Of a stretch of 64,000 bases of DNA, positions 43,083 to 47,176 are shown piece by piece. The translations under genes and the position numbers were made by a program. This DNA is from Planctomycetota bacterium. Its GTDB lineage: Bacteria; Planctomycetota; Phycisphaerae; Phycisphaerales; SM1A02. The notes under the pieces were generated by a model. It saw only the letters and a program-made list of their open reading frames with translations, ran no database searches and had not been told where the DNA came from. How positions within the stretch are numbered: position 1 is the stretch's first letter; each line of letters starts with the position of its first letter. The stretch spans positions 1 to 64,000 of the forward strand of contig JADFFQ010000007.1 in NCBI GenBank assembly GCA_022568135.1, read 5' to 3'.

Positions 43083-45164
43083 ATGCCTCGCATCACCCTG
43101 CCCGATGGAACTGTTCGAGATTACGATCACCCGGTAACTGCCGCCGAGGTCGCCGCGGGAATCGGGCCTCGGCTGGCCAAGGACGCCCTGGGCGCGCGAA
43201 TCAACGGCGAGCTGCGTGATCTGAGCAGCATCATCACCGACGACGCAGAAGTGTCGATCGTGACCTCCACCAGGCGCGAAGGCAAGCTGGACCCGGACGC
43301 GTTATCCCTGATTCGTCATAGCTGCGCCCACGTCATGGCCGAGGCAATCCAGCGCCTCGCCCCCGGGGTGCAACTCGTCTACGGACCACCGCTGGACACC
43401 GGGTTCTATTACGACCTGGCCGTGCCAGAGGGTCGGCCGCTCAGCACCGAGGATTTCGAGGCCATCGAAAAAGAGATGGGCAAGATCATTGCCGATGACC
43501 GGCCGTTTGCCCGCTATGAGCTGGCCAATGATGAGGGGATGGAGAAGCTGAAAGCCGAGGGTAGCAAATACAAGATCGATAATGCCCAGCGAGCGATTGA
43601 GGCCGGGTCCCAGCGTCTGAGTTGGTACGTCACCGGGGAGCGGGGCCGGGATTGGGAGGATCTCTGCCGCGGCCCCCATGTGCCCAGCAGCGGGCGGATT
43701 GGGGCGTACAAGCTGCTGAGCCTCGCCTCAAGCTATTGGCACGGTGACGCCGCCTCAGATCGCCTCACTCGCGTCTATGGCACCGCCTTCGCCACTCCCC
43801 AGCAGCTTCAACGCCATCTTCAGCAGCTCGAAGAGGCCAAAGAACGTGACCACCGTCTGCTGGGAAAGCAGTTGGACCTGTTCCACATCGACGAAGCCGT
43901 CGGGCCGGGGCTGATTCTGTGGACCCCCAATGGAGCCATCATTCGCCGGGAGCTTGAGGTGTTCATCCAGGCGGAGCTGACCAAGCAAGGGTACCAGATG
44001 GTCTATACGCCGCACATCGGCAAGCTCGAGCTGTACAGGACCAGCGGACATTTCCCGTATTTCCGAGAGAGCCAGTATCCGCCGATGATCAGTGTCGATC
44101 AGCTCCAGGCTTTCGCAGCGGAAGGCGTCAGCTGCGCGGAGCTGGCCAATCGCATGCAGCGGGGGGACATCGAAGGCTATTTGCTCAAACCGATGAACTG
44201 CCCGCATCACATGAAGATCTTCGCCTGCCGTCCGCACAGCTACCGGGATCTGCCGGTTCGCCTAGCGGAGTTCGGCACCGTGTACCGCTGGGAGCAGTCC
44301 GGCGAGATCGGCGGGCTGACCCGCGTTCGCAGCATCACCCAGGACGACGCTCATCTGTTCTGCACCGAGGAGCAGATCGCCGAGGAGCTCCACGGCTGCC
44401 TGGAACTGGTCAAGATCATCTTTTCAACCCTGGGCATAGAGGACTACCGGGTGCGAGTGGGCCTGCGCGATCCCGACGGCACGAAGTATGTCGGCGACGC
44501 ATCGGCGTGGGACAAGGCGGAGCAGGCATGTCGGGACGCGGTGCCTACCCTCGGTGTGCCCTTCGTTGAAGAGGCGGGCGAGGCGGCGTTCTACGGCCCG
44601 AAGATTGACTTCATGGTCCGAGACGTGATCGGCCGGGAATGGCAGCTCGGGACCATCCAGGTCGATTACAACCTGCCGCAGCGCTTCGACCTCAGCTACA
44701 TCGGGGCTGACAACGAGCCGCATCGGCCGGTGGTGATCCACCGCGCGCCGTTCGGATCGATGGAGCGGTTCGTTGGTTTGTTGATCGAGCACTTCGCCGG
44801 CGCGTTTCCAACCTGGCTGGCGCCCCAGCAGGTTCGCGTGCTCCCGATCAGCCGAAAGACGCTCAGCTACGGCAAGGTCGTCGTCGCTGCCCTGGTGGGC
44901 CAAGGCGTCCGGGCCGCGATCGACGACTCAGATGACCGCCTCCAGGCCAAGATCAGGGGCGCTGCCCAGATGAAGATCCCGTATCTGCTCGTGGTCGGGC
45001 CAAACGACCAGCAGCGGAACGAGGTAAGCGTGCGGGCCCGCGGAATTCGGCGCGACCTCGGACCGCTTGGGCTGGAAACATTTTTGCGGACCATCCAGGA
45101 GGAAATCGAGACCCGTGGTCGCCGCACAGTCGTCTCTGAGCACTTCCAGGCCGCGGCCGTCTAG
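43083..45164 (+). CDS. thrS: Threonyl-tRNA synthetase
   Basis: The 693-residue protein has the TGS domain (MPRITLPDGTVRDYDHPVTA), the editing domain with HSCAHVMAEAI near residue 80 and the later Cys/His zinc-type editing motif in DLCRGPHVPS, the class II catalytic core with KPMNCPHHMKIF, and the C-terminal anticodon-binding domain. It joins threonine to tRNA-Thr. GAAGGA lies before ATG 43083. Between YPPM and GYLLKPMNC there is an insertion of about 27 residues. It is controlled by the leader, antiterminator and terminator upstream, and followed by infC, as in E. coli. Confidence 0.97.
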   Translation: MPRITLPDGTVRDYDHPVTAAEVAAGIGPRLAKDALGARINGELRDLSSIITDDAEVSIVTSTRREGKLDPDALSLIRHSCAHVMAEAIQRLAPGVQLVYGPPLDTGFYYDLAVPEGRPLSTEDFEAIEKEMGKIIADDRPFARYELANDEGMEKLKAEGSKYKIDNAQRAIEAGSQRLSWYVTGERGRDWEDLCRGPHVPSSGRIGAYKLLSLASSYWHGDAASDRLTRVYGTAFATPQQLQRHLQQLEEAKERDHRLLGKQLDLFHIDEAVGPGLILWTPNGAIIRRELEVFIQAELTKQGYQMVYTPHIGKLELYRTSGHFPYFRESQYPPMISVDQLQAFAAEGVSCAELANRMQRGDIEGYLLKPMNCPHHMKIFACRPHSYRDLPVRLAEFGTVYRWEQSGEIGGLTRVRSITQDDAHLFCTEEQIAEELHGCLELVKIIFSTLGIEDYRVRVGLRDPDGTKYVGDASAWDKAEQACRDAVPTLGVPFVEEAGEAAFYGPKIDFMVRDVIGREWQLGTIQVDYNLPQRFDLSYIGADNEPHRPVVIHRAPFGSMERFVGLLIEHFAGAFPTWLAPQQVRVLPISRKTLSYGKVVVAALVGQGVRAAIDDSDDRLQAKIRGAAQMKIPYLLVVGPNDQQRNEVSVRARGIRRDLGPLGLETFLRTIQEEIETRGRRTVVSEHFQAAAV

Positions 45165-45498
45165 CGGCCCCCAGACGGCCGATGCGGGGGTCCGCCACCC
45201 GCGGGGGCTCGTCTGCGTGTTTATTGTTTCGACAAAATATCATTTGCCCCCTGCCCGATGGCGATGTAGGGTATTGACTTGAACACCCGACGGCCGTACG
45301 GAACCGGCCGTGGGCCTGCGACGTTGGAGCCTGGACGCGGATGCGACCCCAGCACACATTGACTCGGCACGGGACTGCGTAGCTGCATGTCTTCCGACGT
45401 TGCCGACCCAACACAGTCAACGACTCAGCAATGCCGCCGCCTTCGGCTTGGCGTCGGTTCTGATGTCATCTTGGCAAGCCGAATAGAGGAGTCACACC
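45165..45498. other. thrS-infC intergenic region
   Basis: No gene. A GC-rich hairpin (GCGGG/CCCGC, 45184-45202) followed by a T-rich stretch (TGTTTATTGTTTC at 45218-45230) may end thrS transcription. TTGACT at 45274 and 45359 are candidate -35 boxes without good -10 partners. TAGAGGAG at its end belongs to infC. Confidence 0.4.
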
Positions 45499-45501
45499 AT
45501 C
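45486..45501 (+). promoter_or_regulatory. infC: Shine-Dalgarno and ATC start of infC
   Basis: The run GAGGAG at 45486-45491 lies seven bases before ATC at 45499-45501. Above it an in-frame TAG (45484-45486) closes the frame. Between this stop and the first internal ATG well inside the conserved protein, ATC is the only start with a proper ribosome-binding site. IF3 rejects non-AUG/GUG/UUG starts, so this start makes infC sensitive to its own product. Confidence 0.7.
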
Positions 45502-46170
45502 GCCCGGAGACGATTATTCCGCCCCTATGAGAGGACCCCCAGGGGCCCCCGCGTCAACGAACGAATCCGCATCAGCCCGCTTCGGTTGATCGATGAGAAC
45601 GACGAGATGGTTGGAGTTGTGGAGCTCGAGGCTGCCCTTCGCCTGGCCAGGGAAGCAGGGCTCGATCTCGTGGAGATCTCCAGCACCGCAACTCCCCCGG
45701 TCGTTCGGATCATGGACTTCGGCAAGTGGAAGTATGAACAGTCCAAGAAGGACAAGGCGAGCAAAGCCAAGTCCAAGACCACCGATCTGAAGGAGGTCCG
45801 GCTGGGGCGATCCATGAAGATCGACCCTCACGATATCGGTATCCGCCTGGACCAGGCTCGCCGCTTTCTGATTGAAGGCCACAAGGTGCAGATCGTGCAG
45901 AACTTCCGTGGACGCGAGATGCTCCACAGAGAGCGCGGCCATCAACGAATGCGGGAAATCACGGAGCAGCTTGCCGATGTTGCGAAGGTCGAGGTTCCCC
46001 CTCGACAGCTCGGTCGCCGCATGACCATGATCTTCGCACCCGATCGCGCGAAGATCGACCAACTCAAGCGAAATCAGGCCGCCGTGGACGCAAGCCCTAA
46101 GAGCGACTCGGCCGAGACCGCCACCGCCGAGACCTCTCAGTCAGAGCACCTCCATGCCAAGAACGCCTGA
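45499..46170 (+). CDS. infC: Translation initiation factor IF-3
   Basis: From ATC 45499 the 223-residue product begins ARRRLFRPYERTPRGP and RVNERIRISPLRLIDENDEM, the canonical IF3 N-terminal start. The linker is KSKTTDLKEVRLGRSMKIDP, and the C-terminal domain follows (HKVQIVQNFRGREMLHRERG). IF3 binds the 30S subunit and checks the start codon. A start at TTG 45586 would delete conserved residues, so ATC is chosen. rpmI and rplT, usually next, are absent: a phosphoesterase gene follows after 238 bases. An acidic/Ser/Thr tail extends the C terminus. Confidence 0.95.
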   Translation: MARRRLFRPYERTPRGPRVNERIRISPLRLIDENDEMVGVVELEAALRLAREAGLDLVEISSTATPPVVRIMDFGKWKYEQSKKDKASKAKSKTTDLKEVRLGRSMKIDPHDIGIRLDQARRFLIEGHKVQIVQNFRGREMLHRERGHQRMREITEQLADVAKVEVPPRQLGRRMTMIFAPDRAKIDQLKRNQAAVDASPKSDSAETATAETSQSEHLHAKNA

Positions 46171-46283
46171 GCTCAGCTCGCCGCCAGTTCCCTTCACATG
46201 GCCGCAAATCTTCGGCCTATTCTGATCCGGCTCCCCAGGGACGCGAAATCAGGGGTAGAAAACCCGCAGGTGTTTGCGGAACA

Positions 46284-46314
46284 TTGACAATCCTCGCCGG
46301 TCTATTCCGATAGA
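46284..46314 (+). promoter_or_regulatory. Possible promoter of the phosphoesterase gene
   Basis: A consensus -35 TTGACA at 46284-46289 is followed after 18-19 bases by GATAGA (46309-46314), a weak -10. It lies about 95 bases before the start at 46409. Confidence 0.35.
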
Positions 46315-46408
46315 AGCTACACAGCGGTAGGGCCCCCAGCCGGGATCACGCGCCTCGCCGCCGGCTGCCCTATCCCACGGCAAGATCACCAAGCCCAGGG
46401 GCCGAACG

Positions 46409-47176
46409 ATGCGCCGCTACGCCGTCATTTCCGACATTCACGGCAACCTCCATGCCCTGGAGGCGGTGCTGGCCGAAATCGCCCGAATGGGGATTTCCAA
46501 GATCATCTGCCTCGGCGATGTCGTCGGCTACGGGCCGTTCCCCGATCGGTGCATCGACCTGGTGATCAAGTGCTGCTCGACGGCCATTCGCGGCAACCAC
46601 GATGACGCGGTGATCAACCCCCAGCTCGAAGAGGAATTCAACGGGCCGGCAAAGGAGGCGATCGCCTGGTCGCGCGGGGTGCTGGGGCCGCTCCATCTGG
46701 ACGCCCTGTGCCGGCTGCGGGAGATTGAACATCCCCATGAGTCGGTGATGTGCGTCCACGATTGCCCCGTCGCCGCCGCGACCGATTATGTCTACGATAC
46801 GCACATTGCCGCGATCGCCTTCGGCGGGGTCAACACGCCCATCTGCCTGCTCGGGCACACGCATGTTCCCATGGTCTTTGAGGCCCCCCCGGCCGATGAT
46901 TCCAAGGGGGAGCTTACCGCACACGACGTGGTCGCGTATGTGACGCCGGACGGTGAACCGATCGCGCTTGCTCAGGATCGGCGGTACATCTGCAACCCCG
47001 GCTCCGTCGGCCAACCGCGCGATGCCGACCCCCGCGCGAGCTTCGCGGTGCTCGATCTTGACCAGCGCACGTTCACGGTGCATCGCACGGGCTACGACAT
47101 CGACGCGGCGCAGCTGGCCACGCAGCAGGCCGGCCTGCCCACGGTGCTCGCCGACCGCCTCGCCATCGGCGCGTGA
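46409..47176 (+). CDS. Metallophosphoesterase (YfcE/calcineurin-like)
   Basis: The 255-residue protein shows the metallophosphoesterase motifs in order: VISDIHGNLHAL near residue 6, CLGDVVGYGPFP, IRGNHDD and LGHTHVPMVF, with a final NPGSVGQPRDADPRAS. The residues D, H, D, N, H and H bind two metals. It should hydrolyse a phosphodiester or phosphomonoester in the cytosol; related proteins act on bis(5'-nucleosyl) polyphosphates. Substrate is not known. It follows infC in the same direction. Confidence 0.85.
   Translation: MRRYAVISDIHGNLHALEAVLAEIARMGISKIICLGDVVGYGPFPDRCIDLVIKCCSTAIRGNHDDAVINPQLEEEFNGPAKEAIAWSRGVLGPLHLDALCRLREIEHPHESVMCVHDCPVAAATDYVYDTHIAAIAFGGVNTPICLLGHTHVPMVFEAPPADDSKGELTAHDVVAYVTPDGEPIALAQDRRYICNPGSVGQPRDADPRASFAVLDLDQRTFTVHRTGYDIDAAQLATQQAGLPTVLADRLAIGA

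Follow-up and report, generated by a model that had tools for sequence, protein, structure and literature searches.

A near-cognate AUC start and a predicted structured leader at the IF3 gene in an order of uncultured planctomycetes

Where does translation of infC, the gene for initiation factor IF3, begin when its reading frame offers no ordinary start codon ahead of the conserved N terminus, and what might the long leader in front of it do? We asked this of a 64,000-nucleotide stretch of Planctomycetota DNA (the window) and of infC loci from its relatives. The ATC start of infC in the window is not new, since infC of this order joins the infC genes already known to begin with near-cognate codons. 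The unusual part is the leader, with its predicted promoter, two tandem short ORFs and predicted pseudoknot, which lies outside the coordinates of an earlier sequence-only reading of this DNA. We regard the leader as of greater importance than the ATC start.

The product of infC scores 179.8 bits against TIGR00168 in a profile search (cut-off 60), matches both Pfam domains, IF3_N and IF3_C, and matches solved IF3 chains. The sequence-only reading had proposed an ATC start with GAGGAG seven bases ahead of it and a TAG closing the frame upstream, and each of these elements was found at its claimed position (Table 1). The spacer between GAGGAG and ATC is TCACACC, the frame is open from ATC to the TGA at 46168-46170, and the 3' end of the 16S rRNA in the same genome, GGATCACCTCCTTTCTA, contains the anti-Shine-Dalgarno CCTCC. 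It is also correct that no ATG, GTG or TTG retains the IF3 N terminus: the first canonical codon in frame is a TTG, which gene callers limited to those three codons would pick. Starting there would give a product of 194 aa. We rejected it because it costs the IF3_N profile its first 12 positions (−15 bits) and because the 29 residues that precede it are conserved in the family. A longer N terminus beyond the TAG was likewise rejected, since identity before the ATC is at chance except at the Shine-Dalgarno codon and the codon just before the start; a search of the infC alignments for a homologue whose conservation continues past the TAG found none. The start codon of infC is almost certainly the ATC.

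Table 1. Features of the infC locus in the window (1-based positions).
Feature	Positions	Strand	Details	Identified by
thrS	43083..45164	+	conserved upstream neighbor of infC	ORF recognized by sequence
Predicted infC promoter	45244..45272	+	−35 TTGCCC (45244-45249), 17-nt spacer, −10 TAGGGT (45267-45272)	conserved across thrS-infC gaps
Leader ORF 1	45341..45382	+	ATG; encodes MRPQHTLTRHGTA, then stop; GGAG 11 nt upstream	tandem-ORF search in leaders
Leader ORF 2	45387..45530	+	47 aa; ATG 4 nt past the ORF 1 stop	tandem-ORF comparison
Predicted H-type pseudoknot	45433..45483	+	S1, 45433-45440 with 45451-45458; S2, 45442-45450 with 45475-45483	explicit scan, register test, covariance-model recovery
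In-frame TAG	45484..45486	+	closes infC frame upstream; adjoins Shine-Dalgarno	
Shine-Dalgarno	45486..45491	+	GAGGAG	16S 3' end match; G/A-rich column in relatives
infC	45499..46170	+	translation initiation factor IF3, 223 aa	TIGR00168, IF3_N, IF3_C, conservation onset
Near-cognate start codon	45499..45501	+	ATC	
TTG	45586..45588	+	first canonical start in infC frame; rejected as start	

Comparison among relatives bears out this placement. We recovered infC from 59 of 61 relatives, 290 of 294 phylum genomes and 80 named loci, and examined 261 loci around the start, in all of which the conserved Asn of RVN could be aligned. Starts were called by a script using Shine-Dalgarno match and position, with a few ambiguous loci settled by hand and 9 of the 261 left out. 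The start column of the order, read from 59 distinct genes, is ATC in 46, ATT and ATA in 6 each, and CTG in 1; ATG, GTG and TTG occur there in none (0/59). Near-cognate initiation, which the sequence-only reading had supposed to be conserved, is thus found in all 59, and ATC, which it had called a rare codon, seldom starts a gene but is the norm for infC in SM1A02's order. Pairwise amino acid identity among the 33 distinct infC genes of the family jumps from 0.05-0.13 at most upstream positions to 0.94 at the start codon, then settles at ∼0.5 just after it; the upstream exceptions are the Shine-Dalgarno codon (0.43) and the codon preceding the start (0.30). ATA makes up 6 of 58 codons in the start column vs. 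10 of 840 Ile codons inside the same genes (Fisher p = 3e-4). Because ATA is about tenfold commoner there, the column is unlike an internal Ile codon. Nearly half of the order genes (28/59) have an in-frame stop 1-12 codons upstream of the start, positions −12 to −9 are G/A-rich across the 59, and the second IF3 residue is Ala in 40 of them, a context that favors removal of the initiator Met.

Beyond the order, infC starts with ATC, ATT or ATA in the rest of its class and mostly with ATC and ATT in the rest of the phylum. Several families have canonical starts: TTG in f15, f58, f51 and most of f13, GTG in f30, and ATG in f39. At the GTG, TTG and ATG genes of f30, f58 and f39 the Shine-Dalgarno spacing tends to be unusually short, 3-4 nt vs. 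5-9 for ATC, ATT and ATA starts on the same script's scale, and this short spacing may be another means of weakening the site. ACG very rarely serves as a bacterial start codon; eight infC loci (L036, L039, L042, L188, L204, L221, L229 and L247; families f23, f37 and f46) apparently use it behind a good Shine-Dalgarno, most of them with no canonical codon nearby. Four nearly complete phylum genomes (G040, G107, G117 and G138) gave no infC match; a contig edge can cause such a gap, as genome G013 shows (see below).

The genome that carries the window encodes an initiator-type tRNA-Met whose anticodon stem holds three G-C pairs; its anticodon arm, GGGCTCATAACCC, carries what we take to be the initiator signature. 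In PMC5472188, IF3 is described as repressing near-cognate starts, including that of E. coli infC. The E. coli start is ATT, as the sequence-only reading had stated and as we read from NC_000913. With this tRNA, the anti-Shine-Dalgarno and an IF3 42% identical to that of E. coli, the genome has the components that such repression requires, and IF3 is expected to discriminate against AUC here as well. Since infC begins with near-cognate codons in Streptomyces, E. coli and S. aureus, IF3 autocontrol through the ATC start is likely here too.

What precedes this start is less familiar. Within the E. coli-type order thrS-infC-rpmI-rplT, thrS is present in the window and the downstream pair is not: rpmI-rplT occurs in the downstream infC flank of none of 59 order members, and the rplT of the window's own genome lies on another contig than infC. 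Of 59 order members, 28 have thrS upstream of infC, as do 44 of 57 named loci, mostly at a distance of 200-460 nt; the gap in the window is 334 nt. Aligning these gaps revealed a promoter to which a promoter scan, blind to a −10 of TAGGGT, does not respond. The pattern TTGC..-N16-18-TANNNT occurs in 44 of 64 thrS-infC gaps, vs. 1.6 expected from shuffles, and the spacer is exactly 17 in 40 of those 44. infC is therefore predicted to be transcribed from its own conserved promoter, with a transcript start near 45280 and a leader of ∼220 nt.

Two tandem short ORFs occupy this leader. A strict search, requiring a Shine-Dalgarno, an ATG, 8-18 codons and a further ATG at the stop, found them in 23 of the 44 promoter-bearing leaders vs. 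0.6 expected. A looser search, in which the second ORF must reach the infC start region, found them in 61 of 85 leaders drawn from the family, family f4 and the named relatives, vs. 0-11 in six natural controls (reverse complement, 11/85; reversed sequence, 0/85; flanking windows, 5-6 of 81-84). ORF 1 stop and ORF 2 start overlap as ATGA in 43 of the 61. In most relatives ORF 2 stops at or near the infC Shine-Dalgarno (between −18 and −3 relative to the infC start in ∼35/61), and at three loci its stop overlaps the near-cognate infC start itself, as ATAG in L025 and as CTGA in L115 and L120. In the window, ORF 2 runs 32 nt into infC. In one group of loci (L111-L113, L118, L123 and L128), ORF 1 reads MIFSNSFSV or nearly so, the two ORFs overlap as ATGA, and the ORF 2 stop mostly falls on the Shine-Dalgarno (TGAGGA). 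We judge that leader ORFs 1 and 2 are probably translated. Their peptides are another matter. Substitutions per codon position are 100/89/92 and 94/86/69, with no third-position excess in the leader ORFs. A conserved leader peptide was ruled out on this ground, since substitutions spread evenly over codon positions suggest that the peptides are seemingly not selected. The window also holds a seven-codon ATG ORF in the infC frame (MSSWQAE, 45463-45486), which ends at the TAG adjoining the Shine-Dalgarno and whose ATG sits inside the loop of the predicted pseudoknot.

That pseudoknot ends 3 nt before AGGAG. A plain minimum-energy fold of 45440-45560 is no stabler than shuffles (z = +1.0), so the knot needs an explicit search. 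Such a scan gave scores of at least 32 in 13 of 33 family leaders vs. 0.78 expected from dinucleotide shuffles, and 16 of the 33 family members hold the knot in register, vs. 0-3 in 23 natural control windows, the reverse complement included; the relatives share common descent, and close genera are counted separately in these leader and knot counts. In near relatives, 80% of the positions pair in register, vs. 26-57% when the strands are slid. Distant members rebuild the stems from different letters. A covariance model, R1, has a single strong match in the window's own genome, namely the infC leader of the window. It also recovered the infC leader of G047 without protein evidence, and that of G013 at a contig end, which the protein search had missed: infC there is cut after 33 codons, and its S2, CAGCTTG/CAAGCTG, is different and fully paired. 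The signal has its limits. About half of the family members have no pseudoknot in the strict search, and the explicit scan found no knots above chance in families f5, f6, f26 and f30. In an alignment of 12, broken by indels, pair changes on both sides stood out modestly against shuffles (45/500), and further pair types were not in excess (412/500 shuffles); L014, on the wrong strand, was left out of alignment A2. Taken together, these results indicate that the predicted pseudoknot is very probably real. Some Gemmatimonadota loci (L135-L140) carry a GC-rich hairpin ∼60 nt before infC whose loop, CTCCTCCAG with variants, can pair with an SD-like CTGGAG, and this hairpin may sequester the Shine-Dalgarno.

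The infC leader may be new. Rfam covariance models run over 44900-46500 at E up to 5, the L20 leader included, gave no plausible match, and a literature search for a planctomycete infC leader found no publication. As to what it does, we consider reasonably probable a reading in which infC has the AUC start, the conserved promoter, the tandem ORFs and the knot and is subject to IF3 feedback, reinitiation being its least certain step. When IF3 is plentiful, 30S complexes on the infC AUC would be destabilized, and reinitiation would be inhibited, so that less coupling from the leader ORFs would reach infC. When IF3 is scarce, ribosomes leaving the translated leader ORFs would open the pseudoknot and initiate on the AUC. 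Because the ORFs lack codon-position bias, they would matter as translated stretches rather than as peptides. In E. coli, reinitiation falls when IF3 is overexpressed (PMC2268962), although that effect was measured without a Shine-Dalgarno, whereas infC here has a strong one. Since IF3 both lowers reinitiation and rejects near-cognate codons, an AUC fed by the leader would present two IF3-sensitive steps, and the outcome would be negative feedback on infC. We offer only tentatively the combined model, in which reinitiation from the leader ORFs and rejection of the AUC, both IF3-sensitive, would act in series. Equally tentative is the idea of the leader as an IF3 sensor that counts reinitiation, the mini-ORFs and knot delivering post-termination ribosomes to the AUC. 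The infC Shine-Dalgarno is strong enough for direct entry, and some relatives lack the knot; both points count against the combined model. In the window's genus, moreover, the 32-nt overrun of the infC start by ORF 2 weakens the coupling model: ribosomes reinitiating after ORF 2 would need to travel backwards, unless the genus depends mainly on direct entry at GAGGAG.

A simpler account keeps only the near-cognate start and its IF3 feedback and assigns the leader ORFs and knot to general mRNA stability or to a different regulator, a ribosomal protein for instance. Control by ribosomal proteins or small ligands through 5' pseudoknots is of a known kind, and with no rpmI-rplT as neighbors the L20 circuit of E. 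coli is missing here, so that a different one could have taken its place. The AUU-type mechanism alone is enough in E. coli (PMC5472188). However, the infC initiation site is where the tandem ORFs and the knot both end, and they are conserved along with it, while Rfam's ribosomal-protein leaders gave no match; we think this account rather unlikely. Distinctly less likely is that the ATC merely sets a low translation rate, with no feedback. Any weak start codon lowers output, and the TTG, GTG or ATG starts of several phylum families imply that near-cognate feedback is not universal. Yet a near-cognate codon is kept in all 59 order members even as the codon itself varies among ATC, ATT, ATA and CTG, as if rejection by IF3 were what is selected, and E. 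coli offers the precedent of IF3 feedback. It is very improbable that the knot signal arises secondarily from a conserved leader peptide or from G+C-rich base composition. ORF 2 does read AAxFGxA across the stems in several relatives, but neither dinucleotide shuffles nor the natural control windows reproduce the signal, the ORFs show no third-position excess, and at L101, L147, L150, L119 and L280 the stems have changed wholly with pairing kept. Finally, initiation of infC at TTG 45586 or some other canonical codon, with the ATC region untranslated, is barely credible: the TTG is the sole canonical in-frame start ahead of the bulk of IF3, but it forfeits the conserved N-terminal residues described above.

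The favored reading, an AUC start and leader acting with IF3 feedback, may be relevant in several ways. First, with the ATC start a textbook feedback loop reaches an uncultured planctomycete order, and gene callers confined to ATG, GTG and TTG will truncate IF3 across that order. Second, if the mini-ORFs are translated, the act of translating non-conserved upstream ORFs would control an essential initiation factor, a bacterial case of such control. Finally, if the reinitiation-counting reading is true, the leader would belong to a class not yet described for infC, and it suggests a natural reporter of IF3-dependent reinitiation.

It is useful to set the start codon beside those already known. 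In E. coli, infC has an AUU start and is autoregulated by IF3 (Butler, Springer, Grunberg-Manago, as cited in PMC5472188). Both genes carry a near-cognate start behind thrS, and the two IF3 proteins are 42% identical. They differ in that the codon is AUU there and AUC here, that the thrS gap is 3 nt there but here holds a promoter, tandem ORFs and a pseudoknot within its 334 nt, and that rpmI-rplT follows there but not in the window's lineage. Streptomyces, from another phylum, shares both the ATC start and the annotation problem, infC being misannotated in most Streptomyces genomes; a comparable leader was not encountered in the part of PMC5472188 that describes it. The infC start of Listeria is ATT (PMC13068326), and that of S. 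aureus is AUA by retapamulin profiling, with autoregulation proposed (PMC13009471). S. aureus shares the near-cognate start with the window, although there it was seen experimentally, whereas we infer it here.

The leader can be compared in the same way. The pseudoknot of the E. coli IF3-L35-L20 operon is long-range and controls rpmI. Like the one predicted here, it lies in an infC transcript, where it controls translation, but ours would be compact and of the H type, placed immediately 5' of the infC Shine-Dalgarno (for the E. coli knot, Chiaruttini 1996, as cited in PMC6728339). Termination-reinitiation coupling at ATGA overlaps (PMC6728339) likewise offers stop-start overlaps and ORFs that stop at the next Shine-Dalgarno. 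Unlike those systems, the planctomycete leaders have non-conserved mini-ORFs that lead into the near-cognate start of the IF3 gene.
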